Below are positions 57-10,028 of a DNA stretch of 32,773 bases, piece by piece. Position numbers and translations under genes: made by a program. How positions within the stretch are numbered: the first letter of the stretch is position 1; every line of letters begins with the position of its first letter. The DNA is taken from the NCBI GenBank assembly GCA_900313905.1, contig OMTG01000006.1, positions 1 through 32,773 of the forward strand. Reading direction: 5' to 3'. The stretch comes from an uncultured Actinomycetes bacterium. GTDB taxonomy: Bacteria > Actinomycetota > Coriobacteriia > Coriobacteriales > Atopobiaceae. The notes under the pieces are model-generated. The model was given only the letters and a program-made list of their open reading frames with translations, had not been told where the DNA came from and did no database searches.

Positions 57-102
57 TATGGACCATGAACCGAAACGAACAAGGAGGCTCTCATGGTCCA
101 TA
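57..102 (+). promoter_or_regulatory. Inverted repeat enclosing RBS and covering start codon of PAP2 gene
   Basis: Bases 57-68 (TATGGACCATGA) and 91-102 (TCATGGTCCATA) are perfect 12-bp reverse complements separated by 22 nt. The right arm contains the ATG start codon at 93-95, and the loop contains the AAGGAGG Shine-Dalgarno at 81-87. In the mRNA this would form a stem-loop with the start codon paired and the ribosome site single-stranded. Candidate roles are translational control (thermometer- or protein-gated), a DNA operator dyad, or both. The repeat is directly visible; its function is inference. Confidence 0.6.
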
Positions 103-755
103 TCCACTCTCTCATCCGCCGCATCGCTCCGCATCTGGTCCCGACAGCGCTGGCCCTCATCTTCGCAGCCTGCGCCTGGGAGGTCTCTGAGGGGCATCCT
201 CTCGCTATCGACCGCCTGGCTGCATCCCTGGCATCTGCCATCCCTGCCGCCCTCGCGGTGCCGCTTGGGCAGGCGCTCTCCAATCTCCCCTTTGTCGCCG
301 CACCAATCATCCTGCTGGTGCTGCTCCTGCAGAGGAGGCGCCGTGAAGCTGCCCTGGTCACGGGCGCGACTGTCTCAGCGCTTGCCTCTGCAGAGATCCT
401 GAAGCTCGTCTTCCTGCGTCCGCGTCCTGAGATGATGCTCGTCGCTGCCACAGATGCCAGCTTCCCCTCTGGCCATACGACCACGGCCTTCGCACTGGCC
501 ACCATCTGCGCGCTCATCTGGATGCAGCAGCATGCCGGCCGCAGGCGCCTTGTTCCTGCCCTCCTTGTCGCTTCTGCCGTGCTTGTAGGCATGGGCCGCA
601 TCATCCTGGGCGTACACTTTGCATCGGATGTCATTGCCGGAGCAGCGCTCGGCACCCTCGTCTCGTGGATCTGCTGGCAGCTCTTCGCAGGAGTGGGCGC
701 ACAGGCCGCAGCACCAATCCGCACCCGCCAGAAAGGACATGCATGGAGCGCCTGA
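93..755 (+). CDS. PAP2-family membrane phosphatase
   Basis: A 220-residue integral membrane lipid phosphatase of the PAP2 superfamily (phosphatidate or undecaprenyl-pyrophosphate phosphatase type), expected to act at the outer face of the cytoplasmic membrane. All three catalytic motifs are present: K104-X6-R111-P112, P125-S-G-H128, and R169-X5-H175-X3-D179, where H128, H175 and D179 would form the phosphatase site. Hydrophobic segments lie near residues 14-30, 48-80, 88-104, 130-145, 152-170 and 180-200. The ATG at 93 has an AAGGAGG Shine-Dalgarno 5 nt upstream and lies inside an inverted repeat. The gene overlaps the downstream HAMP-DedA chimera by 13 nt, so the two are probably translationally coupled. 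Pairing with a DedA-type protein suggests bactoprenyl-phosphate recycling: PAP2 makes the C55 monophosphate and DedA proteins flip it inward. Substrate cannot be fixed from sequence alone. Confidence 0.9.
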   Translation: MVHIHSLIRRIAPHLVPTALALIFAACAWEVSEGHPLAIDRLAASLASAIPAALAVPLGQALSNLPFVAAPIILLVLLLQRRRREAALVTGATVSALASAEILKLVFLRPRPEMMLVAATDASFPSGHTTTAFALATICALIWMQQHAGRRRLVPALLVASAVLVGMGRIILGVHFASDVIAGAALGTLVSWICWQLFAGVGAQAAAPIRTRQKGHAWSA

Positions 756-2068
756 CAACCATACGGCAGCGCCTGCGGCTCTCGAATATCCTGACGCTGC
801 TCGTCCCGCTTGCCACCTGCATCGTCGTCGCACTCATCTGCGTGGCCGTCTTCCTCATCCAGGTGAGGGGTGGCCTCGATCTCGAGATCTCGGATGCCGA
901 GGACATGACGACAATGGGCAGGGTCGTCTCCGAGACAGCAGGCCATATCCTGAATGAGACTGAAGGGGACCATACCGCAGCTCTGGACGATCTCGCCCAG
1001 AGCGTTGCCGGCTCTGGAGGGATGCTCCAGATCCTCGATGGAACAGGGAACATCTTCTACAGCTCCGGCACGCCGGTGCAGCGCGACTCGCTCCTCGCGA
1101 GCGCGCGTGCGCTCGATGACACGGATGGTGTGCTTGTCTCGGCCGCTGGGACGAGCCTCTACCTCCACAAGGAGGGCAGCTACCATATCGCGCTCTTTGC
1201 GAACTACGCAGAGGTCAGAGGCCACGCTATCAAGCGTGCCCTCCTGATCTCCGGCCTTGTCGTCCTGGCAGCAGCCATCGTCTCGCTGCTTCTGATGGAC
1301 CGTCTTGGCCGCCATCTCGTCTACGACCGGATCGAGAGCGGCCTTGCAGAGCTCGGCGACGGCGTAAGCCGCATCGCAGACGGCGACCTCCGCTTCCGCA
1401 TAGCCCATGCAGAGCAGGACGAGTTCGCACCGATCTGCGATGACTTCAACGAGATGGCAGGACGGCTCGAGGAGGCCGACGAGCGCGAGCTGGCAGAGGA
1501 GCGCCGCCGCCTTGAGCTCATCCTTCCGCTTGCCGGCTTCTTCTCCCGTGCTGGCGCCCTCTGGCTGCCGCTGGCCATCGTCTCTGCGACCATCGGCTCG
1601 CTTGCCGGGGCCTATGTGCTCTATGCGGTGGGGACCATCCTGAATGAGGGGCGTCTCGAGCGCGTGCTTGCCTCCAAGCCTGCCCACTTGCTCGGCTTCG
1701 AAAAGTCCGACGTGAAGGCAGCCTTTGGCTGGTTCGATACCAAGGGCCAGAAGACCGTCCTCATCTGCCGCTGCATCCCCGTCGTGCGGAGCCTGATCTC
1801 GATTCCGGCCGGCATGTCCCATATGAAGCTCGGCAGGTTTATGGCAATGACATTCGCAGGATCGCTCGCCTGGAACACCGTGCTCGTCTGCCTTGGCTTC
1901 TGGGTAGGAAGCGCCTGGGAAGGCGTTGCGGCAGGGGCTGCCTCCGTGATCTATATCGCGAGCTACGTCGTGATTGCAGCAGCAGGGGTGGCAGCGCTCG
2001 TCTGGTTCTGCAAGCGCATCCTTCCCCTCATCAAGTCGCAGGGCCAGACGCCCAGCCACGCTGCCTAG
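743..2068 (+). CDS. Chimera: sensor-kinase N-terminal half (TM-sensor-TM-HAMP) fused to truncated DedA/VTT transporter
   Basis: A 441-residue protein from ATG 743 (GAAAGGAC upstream), overlapping PAP2 by 13 nt. Residues 1-257 look like a two-component kinase input half: TM near 18-40, a roughly 125-residue extracytoplasmic domain, TM near 165-187, then a HAMP domain (about 188-245) and a charged helix. A kinase would next show its phospho-acceptor histidine box. Instead residues 258-430 match a DedA (SNARE-associated, VTT) protein. They begin at the conserved ELILPLAGF motif, followed by the CRCIPVVR...IPAGM region with its conserved arginines and the AWN...GFWVG segment. The kinase catalytic core and the first DedA helix (about 40-50 residues) are missing. 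The junction falls on E258-L259-I260, a tripeptide commonly found both before a kinase H-box and in DedA. Known DedA members such as UptA flip undecaprenyl phosphate. It could be a real in-frame deletion fusion or an assembly collapse; activity is unknown. Confidence 0.75.
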   Translation: MERLTTIRQRLRLSNILTLLVPLATCIVVALICVAVFLIQVRGGLDLEISDAEDMTTMGRVVSETAGHILNETEGDHTAALDDLAQSVAGSGGMLQILDGTGNIFYSSGTPVQRDSLLASARALDDTDGVLVSAAGTSLYLHKEGSYHIALFANYAEVRGHAIKRALLISGLVVLAAAIVSLLLMDRLGRHLVYDRIESGLAELGDGVSRIADGDLRFRIAHAEQDEFAPICDDFNEMAGRLEEADERELAEERRRLELILPLAGFFSRAGALWLPLAIVSATIGSLAGAYVLYAVGTILNEGRLERVLASKPAHLLGFEKSDVKAAFGWFDTKGQKTVLICRCIPVVRSLISIPAGMSHMKLGRFMAMTFAGSLAWNTVLVCLGFWVGSAWEGVAAGAASVIYIASYVVIAAAGVAALVWFCKRILPLIKSQGQTPSHAA

Positions 2069-2776: not shown

Positions 2777-2864
2777 TGAAGGCTCCCTTCATCCGCTCAA
2801 AGACAGCATCCATTGTCTGCGCACCCTATCCAAGGCGCAAGAGGAACGGGAGGGATGCGGGACA

Positions 2865-3772
2865 TCACAGCAGTGCCGTGAGGACCGGAAGCGTGACAAG
2901 CGAGAGCAGGGTCGATGCAAGGATGAGCCCTGCCCATAGCGTCCATCCTGCCCATACTGCTCCGGCAGGATGGCTGTGGTGGACCCTGCCGGCATCGCAG
3001 ACATGAGGACCGCAACGCCTCTGACCGTGGCATCGGAAACCCAAGGCATAAGGACCAGCCAGACCAGGAGCGGGAAGATCACGAGTCGCAGTGCACAGAA
3101 CCAGGCGGTGTCCTTCGTGAACACCTCGTCGACAGCAGCCCCTGAGAGGATCGAGCCGATCGCGAGCATCGAGAGCGGCGTCGTGCACTTCGAGAGCGAA
3201 TCGATAGAGGCGGTCACAGGCGCCGGAAGCGGCACGGGAAAGAGCATATAGAGGACGCCTATGAAGCAGGCGATGATGCAGGGATGGGTGAGGACCTTGC
3301 GTATGGTCTCCTTCCGGTCCACATCGCAGAAGAGCGCCAGTCCTGCCGACCACATCGTGAAGCGGATGGGGATCTGGAAGACCGAAGTGTAAGTGACGCC
3401 GATATTCGAGTAGATGGCCTCGGCCACCGGAAGCCCGACGAAGCTCGAATTCGAGACAATCATCCCGTAGCTGGCGACACGGGAATGCTCCTTGGGCATA
3501 TGCCTGAAGAAGAGCTTCGACCCTTCGATGGCGGCAAGCTGGATCGCGAAGGAGAGCACGAAGGCCAAGATGCAATTCTCCAGGAAGGCGGCATCGGGCG
3601 TGCCGGCATTGATGAACCCATGGAGGATATTGGCAGGGAGCACGAGCATGATCAGGTCCGATGAGAGGGACTTCTCGCCTGCCGGCGTGATGATGCCGAG
3701 GCGGGAGCAGACAAAGCCTGCAGCCATCAGGATGAACATCTCGAGCTGCAGCACGACCATGGTGGCAAGCAT
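2865..3772 (-). pseudogene. AEC-family permease, frameshifted near its 3' end
   Basis: An auxin-efflux-carrier (AEC) family secondary transporter, probably for an organic acid, with repeated hydrophobic segments. The in-frame reading from ATG 3772 is normal through the conserved MPAGSTTAIL segment and then turns into Arg/Ser/Cys-rich nonsense ending at 2789. Reading frame +1 from about base 2935 restores LILASTLLSLVTLPVLTALL and a stop at 2865. That C-terminus aligns with the second AEC permease in this window. Adding one G to the minus-strand GGG at 2933-2935 (giving Tyr-Gly-Ala-Gly-Leu) repairs a 302-residue protein, matching the 304 residues of the paralogue. The start overlaps the upstream dehydrogenase stop by one base (TGATG). 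Either a real frameshift or a homopolymer sequencing error; if real, the last TM helix is lost. Confidence 0.8.
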
Positions 3773-4688
3773 CAGGCAACCGCCTTCTCAGAGATGCCGC
3801 AGGCGGAAAGCACATGCTTCACGGTCTCCATGCCGACACGGTGCTTCGCCTCACGGGTGGATCCTCCGACATGCGGCGTGCAGATGAAGTTCGGAAGCTG
3901 AAGCAGCGGCGATTCCTGCGGAAGCGGCTCGATGGTGGTCACATCGAGTGCTGCTGCGGCGATCCGGCGCATCGAGAGCGCATCGAAGAGCGACTGCTCG
4001 TCCACGACGCCGCCCGGGCGGTATCGACGAGGATGAGGCTGCGCTTGGCCTCGTTGAGCTCACGTGTGCCAATCATGCCCTTGGTCTGGGGCGTGAGCGG
4101 CACGCAGACCTGCACGATATCGGACTTCCGCATGATCTCGTGGATATCCTTCGCATGCAGCACTCCTGCACGCCTCGCCTCCTCGTCCGTCAGATGACGG
4201 GACCAGGCAAGGCAGGTGCAGCCGAAGGCTCCTTTCATCATCTGCGCAATGCGGCGTGCGATATGCCCGAAGCCGACGAAGCCGACCGTCTTCCCATAAA
4301 GCTCGCAGCCCATCAGCTCATGCGGCGAGAAATGGTCGTAGCGCCCTTCCTCGAGGCCCTCCCTTGCTTCAGGGATATGGCGCGCTGCGGCAAGCGTCAG
4401 GGCAAGCGCCATCTCGGCCACGCTCTCCGTGCTGCCACAGGGGACATTGACGACCGGGACGCCTGCCTCCTTCGCAGCTGCGCAGTCGATCATGTCAGTG
4501 CCGGCACCGTGCATCGCGATGATCTTCAGGCGCGTGGCACGGGCAATGATGTCACGGGTGACATGGACACGGCGGACGATGATGGCATCAAGCAGCTCGG
4601 GATGGTCGAAGGTATCGACGACCGTGGCATGCTCCTCCAGGAGCGCGAGCGCTTCGGGATCGATCTCTTCTGACAGGTAGACGTTCAT
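3772..4688 (-). pseudogene. D-2-hydroxyacid dehydrogenase (NAD-dependent), frameshifted
   Basis: A member of the D-isomer 2-hydroxyacid dehydrogenase family (phosphoglycerate/glyoxylate reductase-like), which interconverts 2-oxo and D-2-hydroxy acids with NAD(P)H. From ATG 4688 (GGAAGGAAG upstream) it reads through the Rossmann loop GFVGFGHIARR to the catalytic-Arg segment LVDTAR and then goes out of frame. The other frame supplies VVDEQSLF...ALDVTTIEPLP (catalytic Glu) and FICTPHVGGST (catalytic His), ending at 3772. One extra G in the minus-strand GGG at 4013-4015 would restore TARGGVVDEQ and a 305-residue enzyme. The break separates the Arg from the Glu and His, so neither fragment should be active. 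It is the same type of lesion as in the adjacent permease. The exact substrate is not identifiable. Confidence 0.85.
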
Positions 4689-4747
4689 GGGCTTCCTTCC
4701 TCTGGACCGTCTTTCATCATCCTCGGAAGAGACCATGATGTCTAATA

Positions 4748-4761
4748 CCTATTGATATAGG
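4748..4761. promoter_or_regulatory. Candidate LysR-type operator in AT-rich gap
   Basis: CCTAT-TGAT-ATAGG is a perfect 5-bp dyad in an AT-rich patch (4743-4766) of an otherwise GC-rich region. It lies in the 86-nt gap between the LysR gene and the dehydrogenase gene. The size and AT content are typical of LysR-type T-N11-A sites. It would place the LysR protein at the promoter of the dehydrogenase-permease unit. Binding is inference. Confidence 0.4.
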
Positions 4762-5771: not shown

Positions 5772-6686
5772 TTACAGCCAGACGATCTGGGCCAGCCCCA
5801 CCATCACCGGTATCGTGACGATGCTTGCAAGCACCGACACCACGATCGTCTCGGTCGCATGGGCATAGTCGTTCCCATAGAGCTGGGAATAGACCGCCAC
5901 CATGGAGGCGACCGGGCATGCCTGCGCAATGAGGAGAGCCATCTTCACCGCGAAGAATTCCTGGGGAAGGATGCTGAGGCAGGCAAGGATGGAAAGCGGC
6001 ACGGCGATGAGCCGCACTGCCGCCACCTTGTAGGCACCATTCCTTCCCAGAAGCGCATGGAGGTCGGTCTCGGCCAGATAGACGCCGACGCTGAACATCG
6101 CAAGCGGCGTGTTCACGGCCGCCACGAAATCGAGTGCATCCTGGAGCACATCAGGCAGGGCAGCCGCCGTGAAATAGAGCACGAGACCGATCAGCGCCGC
6201 AATCAGGAAGGGAGCCGTGAGGATGCTCCGGAGATTGGGCTTCGTCCGCTCCCCTTTAAGGATCCCCACCCCGTAGGTCCACTGGCCGATGTTCATGGCA
6301 GCGATGAAGCCAGTCATATAGAAGACCGCATCCTGCCCGAGCACGGACGTGACGAGCGGGATGCCGAAGAAGCTCGGATTCGAGAAGGTGCCCGCAAAGC
6401 ATTCGACCGGATCGTCCTTCAGGAAGATGCGCGCCACGATGCCGCCGACAAAGACGATCGCGATGCCGGCAAGAGCTGATACCAGGAGCGCTTCGGTGTT
6501 CTCCGCAGTCCGCTCGACCTGGAAGCCCTTGATGATGACAGCAGGGAGGGAGAGGTAGATGAGGATATTGCCGATTGTGCGGTTGCCTTCGAGCGTTATC
6601 TTGCCGAAGCGGAACATGAGATAGCCGATGCCGGCCAGGATGAACATCACGAGGACCTGGGCTGCCACTATCAAGGACATCTGCAT
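5772..6686 (-). CDS. AEC-family transporter (intact paralogue)
   Basis: A 304-residue auxin-efflux-carrier family permease with about ten hydrophobic helices in two halves. It starts LIVAAQVLVMFILAGIGYLMFRFGKIT and contains the conserved TFSNPSFFGIPLVTSVLG segment (about residues 100-118), typical of the substrate-binding crossover, and a second half ending VTIPVMVGLAQIVWL. Family members move organic acids such as malate. ATG 6686 is chosen because GGAGG lies 8 nt upstream; ATG 6680 is too far from it, and a further upstream start at 6791 gives a non-hydrophobic, unlikely leader. It lies between the glycerol-3-phosphate module and the LysR gene. It is a distant paralogue of the frameshifted permease and shows the C-terminus that copy should have. 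Confidence 0.9.
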   Translation of the reverse strand: MQMSLIVAAQVLVMFILAGIGYLMFRFGKITLEGNRTIGNILIYLSLPAVIIKGFQVERTAENTEALLVSALAGIAIVFVGGIVARIFLKDDPVECFAGTFSNPSFFGIPLVTSVLGQDAVFYMTGFIAAMNIGQWTYGVGILKGERTKPNLRSILTAPFLIAALIGLVLYFTAAALPDVLQDALDFVAAVNTPLAMFSVGVYLAETDLHALLGRNGAYKVAAVRLIAVPLSILACLSILPQEFFAVKMALLIAQACPVASMVAVYSQLYGNDYAHATETIVVSVLASIVTIPVMVGLAQIVWL

Positions 6687-6846
6687 GGAACAAGCCTCCA
6701 GAGAAGATCTTGCGCAGGAGCTTTCAGATTCCTGCGGACAAGCTCTTCCATGGTAATGGTTCGCAGAACTTTTGGGCTGTTCGAGGCCCATTCTTCCCAG
6801 CGTGCCGCAACCATGGCTGCGAATGCACCTTCGCCAGATATGCTGA

Positions 6847-6878
6847 AGGCGGCAGGAAGCCCAAGCCTCCTGCCGCCT
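6847..6878 (-). terminator. Hairpin after the glycerol-3-phosphate module
   Basis: AGGCGGCAGGA (6847-6857) pairs perfectly with TCCTGCCGCCT (6868-6878) around a 10-nt loop, 33 nt past the DUF1667 stop. The stem is strong, but no T run follows, so it may be a terminator, an RNA processing site or a 3' stabiliser. The whole 224-nt gap 6687-6910 holds nothing else I can support; a small minus ORF there is not convincing. Confidence 0.5.
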
Positions 6879-6910
6879 CTCATCTCGGCAATCTGCCCAG
6901 AAGCGCTGCC

Positions 6911-7270
6911 TCAGGCGTTGCGCGTGGCGACCATATCGACACCGGTGCCAGCGATATCATGCACGACCACATCCCCGATATGGACGGGAGCTGCTGCCTT
7001 TGCATCGGCGAGCGCCTTCATTACGGCAAAGATCTTCTCCTTCGGCACAGGAGAGGCGGTCTTCACCGAGATCATCTGCTCTGTGGCAGAGCCCGTGACC
7101 GGAACCGATGAGGTGACGATGCGGGTCGGATGCGTGAGCTCGGAGCGGGCATACCTATCGCCCCGGATGCAGGTGTTGCCCGTGACCGAGACGATCTTGC
7201 CACCCTCGAGCGTGGCTGTCACCTGGCAGCCGAGCGGGCAGTTGATGCAGGTGAGCGTCTTTGTCTCCAT
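6911..7270 (-). CDS. DUF1667 iron-sulfur-type protein
   Basis: A 119-residue small protein of the DUF1667 family. Its N-terminus has the cysteine pattern C-X2-C-X3-C (CINCPLGC) followed about 26 residues later by a fourth Cys in the NTCIRG segment, like the [4Fe-4S] site at the front of molybdopterin oxidoreductases. The family regularly accompanies a GlpA-like dehydrogenase and an FAD/NAD oxidoreductase and is thought to be an electron-transfer subunit. ATG 7270 follows GAGGAGG with 6 nt spacing. It starts just past the upstream stop (1-nt gap), so it is translationally coupled. No membrane segment is visible. Confidence 0.85.
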   Translation of the reverse strand: METKTLTCINCPLGCQVTATLEGGKIVSVTGNTCIRGDRYARSELTHPTRIVTSSVPVTGSATEQMISVKTASPVPKEKIFAVMKALADAKAAAPVHIGDVVVHDIAGTGVDMVATRNA

Positions 7271-7271
7271 C

Positions 7272-8534
7272 TCATGCCTCCTCGAGCGCGACCACGATCT
7301 TGCTGGCATCTGGATAGTTCATGAGGTCAGCCTTCTTGAGGATGACCTGCTCCATCTCGCCAGGGGCGACGACCGGACGCTTCTTGTGGGCTATGCGCAC
7401 ATCGTCCACATAGACCGACTCGAAGACGTTCTTCCTGATGCCACCAACACGGAAGCGGACCGTGAGCTTCTCATCCATGGATGCCACATCGACCGTGGCA
7501 GGGACCGTATAGCGGACGCCGCCTGCTGCCTCGATGGGGATGCCTGCCGGCTCGCTCGCAGGCTTTCCGGCCTGGATATAGGCTGCGGCATGCCTTCCGG
7601 CAGAGGCCGCCTCCTCAGAGACATAGTCCACGAGATCGTGCACATGCAATACATTGCCACAGGCGAAGATGCCGGGCACCTCGGTCTCGAGGCTCTCGTT
7701 CACGATGGGACCACGGGTCACTGGAGAGAGAGCCACCCCTGCCTTCTGCGAGAGCTCGTTCTCCGGTATGAGGCCGCAGGAGAGAAGCAGCGTATCGCAG
7801 CTGTAGTGCTCCTCGGTGCCGGGGATGGGCTTGCCTTTCCCATCGACTGCTGCGACCGTGACGCCTTCGACACGGTCCTTCCCCTGGATATCGATGACGG
7901 TATGGCTGAGCCTCAGCGGAATGCCGAAGTCATCGAGGCACTGCACGATGTTGCGCTTGAGGCCGCCCGAATACGGCATGAGCTCGAGGACGACCTGGAC
8001 ATGCGCCCCTTCGAGCGTAAGCCTGCGGGCCATGATGAGGCCGATGTCGCCCGAACCCAGGATCACGACTTCGCGTCCCGGCATGACGCCCTCAATATTG
8101 ACGAGATGCTGAGCGCATCCTGCCGTATAGATGCCAGCAGGGCGGGTGCCTGGGATATTGAGGGCGCCCCTCGGACGCTCACGGCACCCCATCGCCAGGA
8201 CGATGGCATCAGCTTCCACCTGGACGAGCCCTGTCGTGGGCGAGACGAAGGTCACGACCTTCTCGGGGCTGATATCGATGACGGTCGCCTCGCAGAGGCA
8301 CTCGATCTGGCGCTCATGGACCTGATCGATATAGCGCTGGGCGTATTCAGGCCCTGTCAGCTCCTCATTGAAGGTATGGAGGCCGAAGCCGTTGTGGATG
8401 CACTGGTTGAGGATGCCGCCGAGCTTGGGCTCGCGTTCGAGCACAAGGATGTCGCGCTCCCCTGCATCATAGGCGCTTTCTGCGGCAGCAAGCCCTGCTG
8501 GGCCGCCGCCGACGATCACGAGAGAGCGATGCAT
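7272..8534 (-). CDS. FAD/NAD(P)-dependent oxidoreductase (Pyr_redox_2 family)
   Basis: A 420-residue flavoprotein. The N-terminus carries the FAD Rossmann motif VIVGGGPAGLAAAESA. A second nucleotide-binding motif, VVILGSGDIGLIMARRL (about residues 155-171), would hold NAD(P)H, and FACGNVLHVHDLVD (about 286-299) is the second FAD contact. It lies between a GlpA-like dehydrogenase and a DUF1667 protein, the usual companion arrangement in anaerobes. Inference: it passes electrons from glycerol-3-phosphate oxidation to NAD or to a downstream acceptor. The ATG overlaps the upstream stop by one base (TGATG). Function is assigned at family level only. Confidence 0.88.
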   Translation of the reverse strand: MHRSLVIVGGGPAGLAAAESAYDAGERDILVLEREPKLGGILNQCIHNGFGLHTFNEELTGPEYAQRYIDQVHERQIECLCEATVIDISPEKVVTFVSPTTGLVQVEADAIVLAMGCRERPRGALNIPGTRPAGIYTAGCAQHLVNIEGVMPGREVVILGSGDIGLIMARRLTLEGAHVQVVLELMPYSGGLKRNIVQCLDDFGIPLRLSHTVIDIQGKDRVEGVTVAAVDGKGKPIPGTEEHYSCDTLLLSCGLIPENELSQKAGVALSPVTRGPIVNESLETEVPGIFACGNVLHVHDLVDYVSEEAASAGRHAAAYIQAGKPASEPAGIPIEAAGGVRYTVPATVDVASMDEKLTVRFRVGGIRKNVFESVYVDDVRIAHKKRPVVAPGEMEQVILKKADLMNYPDASKIVVALEEA

Positions 8535-10009
8535 CAGAGATCATCTCCCTTGCGCCAGGAGTCCTTGTCGTAGCCTTCCACGAACTCGGAGCCTGGCCCT
8601 TTCTTCGAGATGTCTTCCAGCGTGAGGTCCGGCACCTCGTGTGCGAGGATGTCCATCACCTTCGGAGTGCAGAAGCCTCCCTGGCAGCGTCCCATGCCAC
8701 ACCTCACCCGCCGCTTCAGAGCATCGAGCGAGCGAGCGCCGAGCGGACGGTGGATGGCATCGAGGATCTCCCCTTCGCTGACCTCCTCGCAGCGGCAGAT
8801 GATCCTCCCATAGGCTGGATTGGATGCAATGAGGGCAGCGCGTTCCTCGAAAGGCAGCTCTGCTGCATGCACGATGCCCTGCCGCGTCGTTCTGAAGCTC
8901 CCCTCCTCCTTATGGTCGAGATGGAGGATCTCCGCAACGATATCGCTCACAGCCACGCCGAGCGCTGGCGCAGAGGTGAGGCCCGGCGATTCGATGCCGG
9001 CACAGTCGACAAATCCAGGTGCATCGGAGAGCTCGCCGATAGCGAACTCATGCTCGGGCCTATGGGCGCGGTTGCCGGCAAAGGAGGTGATCACCTCACG
9101 GAGCGGGATGTCCTTCACGGTCTTGGCAGCGCCGGTGCGCACCGCATCGAGGCCGGATGCAGTCGTCGCCACGTCGTCCGCATCGTCCACATCGATTGCC
9201 GTGGGGCCCAGGATCAGGTTCCCGTGGCAGGTAGGCGTCACGAGGATGCCCTTGCCCATCTTCGAGGGCAGGCAGAAGATCGTGTGGTGCACATGGGTGC
9301 CGCATCTCTTGTCGAGCAGGAGATACTCTCCCCTCCTCGGGATGATGGCCATCTTTTCGGCGCTCACCATGTTGTGGATCTCGCCTGCATGGGTGCCTGC
9401 CGCATTCACGACTGCACGCGCATGGAAGGTTCCCTGGCTTGTGGCGATCTCCCAGATGCCATCTGAGGTGCGGCTGATGCCGGTGACCTCCGTGTCCAGA
9501 TGGAACTCCGCCCCATTCTCGGCGGCATTCTCAGCCTGGGCGATCGTGAGGAGGAAGGGATCCACGATGCCTGCCGTCGGTGCCCAGAGGGCGCCCACTG
9601 CCTCGTCGGAGATGTTCGGCTCCATCGCGCAGAGCCTATCGCGGCCAATGACCTCGAGGCCCTTCACGCCATTGGCCTCGCCGCGAGCCTTGAGGTCGTC
9701 GAGCTTCGGCATGTCCTCTGCGTCGGTGCAGACCACGAGCGACCCGATGCGCTGGAAAGGCACATCGAGGTCTCGGCAGACCTGCTCCATCATCTCGTTG
9801 CCGAGCACGTTGTACTTTGCCATCAGCGTACCCGGCATCGCATCGTAGCCGGCATGGACAATGGCGGAATTGGCCTTGGAGGTCCCTGAGCAGACATCGT
9901 CTCCACGCTCCAGGACCAGAAGCGAGCATGACCACTGCGACAGATTGCGGGCTATTGCGGTCCCCACGACGCCTGCACCGATCACGCAGACATCAAAGCA
10001 GTCCCTCAT
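8534..10009 (-). CDS. GlpA-like glycerol-3-phosphate dehydrogenase with C-terminal [2Fe-2S] domain
   Basis: A 491-residue FAD-dependent dehydrogenase of the DAO family. It opens with CVIGAGVVGTAIARNLS and contains the SGTSKANSAIVHAGYDA segment (about residues 41-57) typical of GlpA/GlpO and L-2-hydroxyglutarate-oxidase relatives. Residues about 405-460 form a BFD-like [2Fe-2S] domain with ligands in CRCEE and CGMGRCQGGFC. Probable reaction: oxidation of sn-glycerol-3-phosphate to dihydroxyacetone phosphate, with electrons passed to the next two gene products. L-2-hydroxyglutarate is an alternative substrate. Start ATG 10009 has AGGAGG 9 nt upstream. It heads a three-gene coupled unit. No glycerol kinase, facilitator or GlpC membrane anchor is in the window. 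Confidence 0.85.
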   Translation of the reverse strand: MRDCFDVCVIGAGVVGTAIARNLSQWSCSLLVLERGDDVCSGTSKANSAIVHAGYDAMPGTLMAKYNVLGNEMMEQVCRDLDVPFQRIGSLVVCTDAEDMPKLDDLKARGEANGVKGLEVIGRDRLCAMEPNISDEAVGALWAPTAGIVDPFLLTIAQAENAAENGAEFHLDTEVTGISRTSDGIWEIATSQGTFHARAVVNAAGTHAGEIHNMVSAEKMAIIPRRGEYLLLDKRCGTHVHHTIFCLPSKMGKGILVTPTCHGNLILGPTAIDVDDADDVATTASGLDAVRTGAAKTVKDIPLREVITSFAGNRAHRPEHEFAIGELSDAPGFVDCAGIESPGLTSAPALGVAVSDIVAEILHLDHKEEGSFRTTRQGIVHAAELPFEERAALIASNPAYGRIICRCEEVSEGEILDAIHRPLGARSLDALKRRVRCGMGRCQGGFCTPKVMDILAHEVPDLTLEDISKKGPGSEFVEGYDKDSWRKGDDL

Positions 10010-10028
10010 GATGCGCAGCCTCCTCTCC

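Follow-up and report, generated by a model that had tools for sequence, protein, structure and literature searches.

The window, that is, the whole stretch of 32,773 nucleotides that was analysed, carries close to its left end an open frame on the forward strand (743–2068, 441 aa), with an ATG start at 743 and free of stop codons throughout. The 3′ end of a PAP2-family phosphatase gene overlaps the start of this frame by 13 nt. The features of the region are as follows:

93–755, forward strand: PAP2-family phosphatase gene, candidate undecaprenyl-pyrophosphate or lipid phosphatase (PF01569, E 4.5e-21)
743–1522, forward strand: front of a sensor histidine kinase, comprising TM1, an extracytoplasmic sensor, TM2 and HAMP (1343–1474), and stopping just short of the H-box
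1514–1522, forward strand: putative deletion junction (Glu-Leu-Ile), a stretch common to the kinase and dedA parents
1514–2068, forward strand: DedA/VTT core without its N-terminus (VTT, PF09335, at 1538–1897)
2789–3787, reverse strand: membrane transport protein (PF03547) with its last part out of frame; the match stops before the C-terminus, and the expected C-terminal sequence lies in another frame
3772–4748, reverse strand: D-isomer 2-hydroxyacid dehydrogenase gene, disrupted by a frameshift of one base (PF02826, profile positions 1–130, then 129–178 in the next frame)
6911–10027, reverse strand: DUF1667-like protein, FAD oxidoreductase and GlpA-like dehydrogenase

The protein encoded at 743–2068 runs in the order TM-sensor-TM-HAMP and then passes into a DedA/VTT core, the switch occurring at GAGCTCATC (1514–1522, Glu-Leu-Ile). 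Pfam assigned HAMP (PF00672) to residues 201–244 (E 7.7e-7), a position after TM2 as in sensor kinases, and VTT/DedA (PF09335) to residues 266–385 (E 4e-16), with a score of 60–64 bits that exceeds the curated cut-off of 33.9. No kinase domain, whether the H-box phospho-acceptor or the HATPase, was detected in the fusion by Pfam, and the switch to DedA precedes the H-box. A previous sequence-only reading had delimited the frame and placed the switch at this same tripeptide, which Pfam and the alignments to a related genome, G021, confirm. It had also described the kinase catalytic domains and the N-terminal DedA helix as missing; this holds as well, given the absence of a Pfam kinase domain and the presence of the lost helix in intact homologs.

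The two halves match separate genes in the 60 related genomes searched: residues 1–263 correspond to a kinase frame of 506–545 aa, and residues 258–436 to a separate DedA frame. The matches lie approximately 1.6–1.7 kb apart in G021 and G001. An intact, collinear arrangement of histidine kinase (HK), response regulator (RR) and dedA, all in the same orientation, was found in eight genomes (G001, G021, G046 and G139–G143, the last five belonging to a genus other than that of the window). In another genome, G084, the genes are divided between two contigs, one ending with the kinase and regulator and the other starting with DedA, the break being between RR and DedA. The operon loci, each comprising HK, RR and a COG0586-type DedA, are L033 (5177–8233), L034 (4691–7573, reverse strand), L035, L105–L109 and L103/L104. 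At the protein level, residues 1–263 of the fusion are 63–69% identical to the intact kinases of G021, G001 and G084, and residues 1–257 are 46–69% identical to the operon kinases of G001, G021, G084 and G046, while the DedA half shares 70–74% identity with the intact DedA proteins of G021, G084 and G001. A variant locus was observed in G013 (L041), where a PAP2 gene takes the place of dedA behind a related pair of kinase and regulator. The kinase match of G143 (L109) carries one in-frame TAG and is possibly another damaged copy of this kinase.

The search of relatives for separate kinase and dedA genes at this very locus, suggested in the sequence-only reading, thus succeeded, including in G001, which belongs to the same genus as the window. 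One half of what that reading had named as a refutation, separate genes in close relatives, is hence observed. In G001, a PAP2 homologue lies directly upstream of the intact kinase, and DUF1667-like, FAD oxidoreductase and GlpA-like genes lie directly past dedA, with 69–82% identity to their counterparts in the window and in the same order. Five extra genes, unmatched in the G001 locus, separate dedA from this cluster in the window. Since neighbours on both sides are common to the window and G001, the locus is orthologous, and the window represents the derived form.

The kinase alignment to G021 spans 748–1522 of the window (70% DNA identity), the separate dedA alignment spans 1514–2043 (75% DNA identity), and the two share exactly nine bases, 1514–1522. 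At this position, the kinase parent reads GAG CTT ATC, GAG CTC GTC or GAG CTC AGA in the nearest relatives, and the dedA parent reads GAG CTC ATC. In G021, G084 and G001, the kinase end accordingly reads GAGCT(C/T)... and the dedA end GAGCTCATC; the window keeps one copy. The direct repeat would have been 5–9 bp long, a length that derives from the kinase codons of the relatives rather than from the window's own pre-deletion sequence. The chance of such microhomology at a random breakpoint is about 5e-5 for at least 9 bp and about 0.006 for at least 5 bp. By DNA alignment, the removed segment amounts to 1,722 bp relative to G021 and 1,560 bp relative to G001, both multiples of 3, and contains the H-box and ATPase half of the kinase, a complete response regulator and the head of dedA. 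An in-frame deletion between the R-E-L-I that precedes the kinase H-box and the S-E-L-I-L-P-L of dedA had been proposed in the sequence-only reading. The intact relatives support that proposal well, but the intervening response regulator had been missed.

The genes lost from the locus have no orthologues elsewhere in the window's own assembly, where the best match to the response regulator reaches 41% identity and that to the kinase tail 33%. The regulators of G001 and G021 are 65% identical to each other, which indicates that these weaker matches are paralogues and that the orthologues are absent. The 33% match, a kinase on contig C69, was discarded as the missing tail, as it belongs to another kinase, truncated where its contig ends.

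We examined whether the junction could stem from the assembly. The first 55 bases of the window's contig are identical to the final 55 of contig C127, and overlaps of exactly 55 bases were also found for two more pairs of contig ends, making three pairs among the 20 sampled contigs to which this check was confined. The overlap with C127, at 1–55, marks a point shortly before the PAP2 gene at which the graph branches. End overlaps of 55 bp point to a de Bruijn assembly with k=55, which could not collapse a repeat of 9 bp; an artefact is, therefore, unlikely, and so is the assembly collapse that the sequence-only reading had held open as its alternative. The junction could still be a library chimera, or wrong ends joined by the assembler, in an organism that has the intact operon. 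In favour of such an origin, the distance from the junction to a contig end is 1.5 kb, and a stray 1.6 kb piece could have been lost to a length filter, the sampled contigs being at least 2,770 bases long. Indeed, the assembly is a 181-contig draft in which the smallest of 20 other contigs sampled has 2,770 bases, as if length-filtered, so that the missing 1.6 kb alternative piece is not decisive by itself. However, the 55-bp overlaps imply that k-mers of at least 55 crossing the junction were present in the reads and, with both forms abundant, the contig should break at the junction, whereas it is unbroken. It also speaks against an artefact that read pairs from short inserts would not bridge a distance of 1.6 kb. 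We consequently regard an artefactual junction as improbable. Somewhat less improbable, albeit still unlikely, is that the deletion is real but polymorphic, the fused form being the majority in the sampled community; this sub-case overlaps with the reading of the fusion as an operon remnant. It would suit a draft that resembles a metagenome bin (sampled contigs all >2.7 kb) and whose contig end at position 1 points to a nearby graph branch, but no second allele was seen in the assembly.

The fusion appears to be confined to this genome. No protein spanning the junction was found in 140 genomes of the family or in 398 genomes of the class, and every DedA match in the latter starts at residue 257/258 or later. 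Neither the junction nor relatives were found in viral contigs, and, judged by title or abstract, none of the papers from a full-text literature search deals with a HAMP-DedA protein. Relative-rate counts revealed a clear, consistent excess of changes in neither half of the fusion, so that the fused gene does not yet show decay. Accelerated change was discarded as a sign of decay, given that the chi-square of 4–4.5 for the sensor half flipped direction with the outgroup. The lack of a rate excess would fit a deletion that is young compared with the divergence from the nearest genomes and would equally fit a product that is still constrained.

The neighbouring genes bear on the state of the locus. 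With the transport protein and the dehydrogenase gene both disrupted, the chromosome region around the fusion seems to be decaying, although draft indel errors may instead account for these frameshifts. At 5772–6956 on the reverse strand lies a second permease-like gene, which seems to be complete.

We then considered what the DedA half retains. DedA proteins of COG0586 need acidic residues on both sides of the first re-entrant loop (E39 and D51) and arginines on the second (R130 and R136) (PMC6849406, PMC7818093, PMC10127716). E39 is essential in YqjA/YghB (PMC7818093, PMC6849406), and a contact between E32 and R118 of UptA contributes to C55-P binding (PMC11474028). Both acidic residues belong to the motif E-N-x-F-P-P-I-P-S-E, which shows no variation among the nine intact operon DedAs or the DedAs of Clostridia and Bacilli in the alignment. 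The deletion cuts between the two: E258, equivalent to D51, is kept, and the glutamate equivalent to E39/E32 is lost. The arginines of the second re-entrant loop are kept as R343 (1769–1771) and R349 (1787–1789), within R-C-I-P-V-V-R. The complete inverted repeat, in which an amphipathic helix, a re-entrant loop and a TM helix occur twice, is not present in the fusion, where neither amphipathic helix 1 nor the N-terminal half of re-entrant loop 1 remains. Two structure models of low to moderate confidence (mean pLDDT 65.6 and 62.5), which served for helix layout and not for fold searches, are in line with this. The intact homologue is modelled with helices at 2–12 and 14–26, a break at the loop tip and a helix from 33, of which the fusion retains only the last, and the confidence of the fusion model is lowest at the junction, with residues 259–270 below 50. 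No solved relatives were found in the PDB by sequence. On these grounds, the flippase function of the fusion is likely lost. The genome encodes one other VTT protein, on contig C6, which is intact (217 aa), has all four key residues (E, D, R and R) and shows the E...D and R...R spacing of YqjA/YghB. No member of DUF368, the other family of C55-P flippases, was found in the window's genome.

These observations also allow us to assess the possibility that the fusion is a functional new protein, in which the sensor and HAMP gate a DedA flippase directly and replace the two-component pathway. The frame is uninterrupted, in frame across the junction, provided with a normal start and adjacent to a PAP2 gene; both halves change at normal rates, and the arginines of the second re-entrant loop are retained. 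With its normal start, the open frame may yield some product. Nevertheless, re-entrant loop 1 is cut at its tip, with loss of helices 2–12 and 14–26 and of the essential glutamate, in the part of the model where confidence is lowest; furthermore, the arrangement occurs in a single genome and the neighbouring genes are frameshifted. We thus consider a functional new protein very improbable. The HAMP-gated bactoprenyl-phosphate transporter envisaged in the sequence-only reading finds no support either, as the first half of loop 1, the essential glutamate and the regulator have all been lost and the arrangement was found in no other genome. We give a marginally smaller chance still to the specific proposal that the fusion is expressed and its sensor-HAMP module directly controls a minimal DedA core; were it true, bactoprenyl-phosphate recycling would respond to a membrane signal with no phosphorelay in between.

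In our assessment, the fusion is most likely an inactive operon remnant, left by one in-frame deletion of approximately 1.6–1.7 kb. In the ancestor, one operon would have carried the genes for a sensor kinase, a response regulator and DedA. A single deletion, with its ends in short direct repeats of the kinase (just before the H-box) and of dedA, would have taken the catalytic half of the kinase, the whole response regulator and the head of dedA, leaving the frame open by chance. The resulting chimeric membrane protein would probably have neither kinase nor flippase activity, considering that half of the first re-entrant loop and the essential glutamate are missing. With a complete DedA elsewhere in the genome, such a remnant might be tolerated. 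An automatic pipeline would annotate a 'HAMP-DedA' protein at what is, on this reading, a deletion scar, and the finding matters chiefly as a correction. The best lead for further work is the intact HK-RR-DedA operon of the relatives. The co-occurrence of these three genes across several genera, with PAP2 added in the window's genus, suggests dedicated signalling for the recycling of the lipid carrier.

Bacteria are known to lose segments flanked by short direct repeats independently of RecA (PMC5426353). As in those deletions, the segment between the repeats is lost and one copy is left, at 1514–1522, although the repeat of the window is deduced from relatives and the process itself is unobserved. 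Compared with the HK of the HK-RR-DedA operon (G001, G021, G084 and G046), the fusion shares the TM-sensor-TM-HAMP portion but lacks the H-box, the dimerisation/phospho-acceptor domain and the ATPase domain, and its partner response regulator is deleted. With the undecaprenyl-phosphate flippases of the DedA family COG0586 (UptA of B. subtilis, YqjA/YghB of E. coli), it has in common the VTT domain, both loop-2 arginines and an acidic residue at the C-terminal side of loop 1 (E258, equivalent to D51). In contrast to them, it has a kinase sensor-HAMP portion in place of the first amphipathic helix and the N-terminal half of loop 1, and the residue equivalent to E39/E32 is missing. Fusions of DedA with PAP2, rhodanese and pyridine nucleotide-disulfide oxidoreductase are listed in a survey of about 6,000 genomes (PMC10127716). 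They resemble the frame of the window in joining a DedA domain to another domain but are existing types, whereas the HAMP-DedA fusion is in one genome only and truncates the DedA core.
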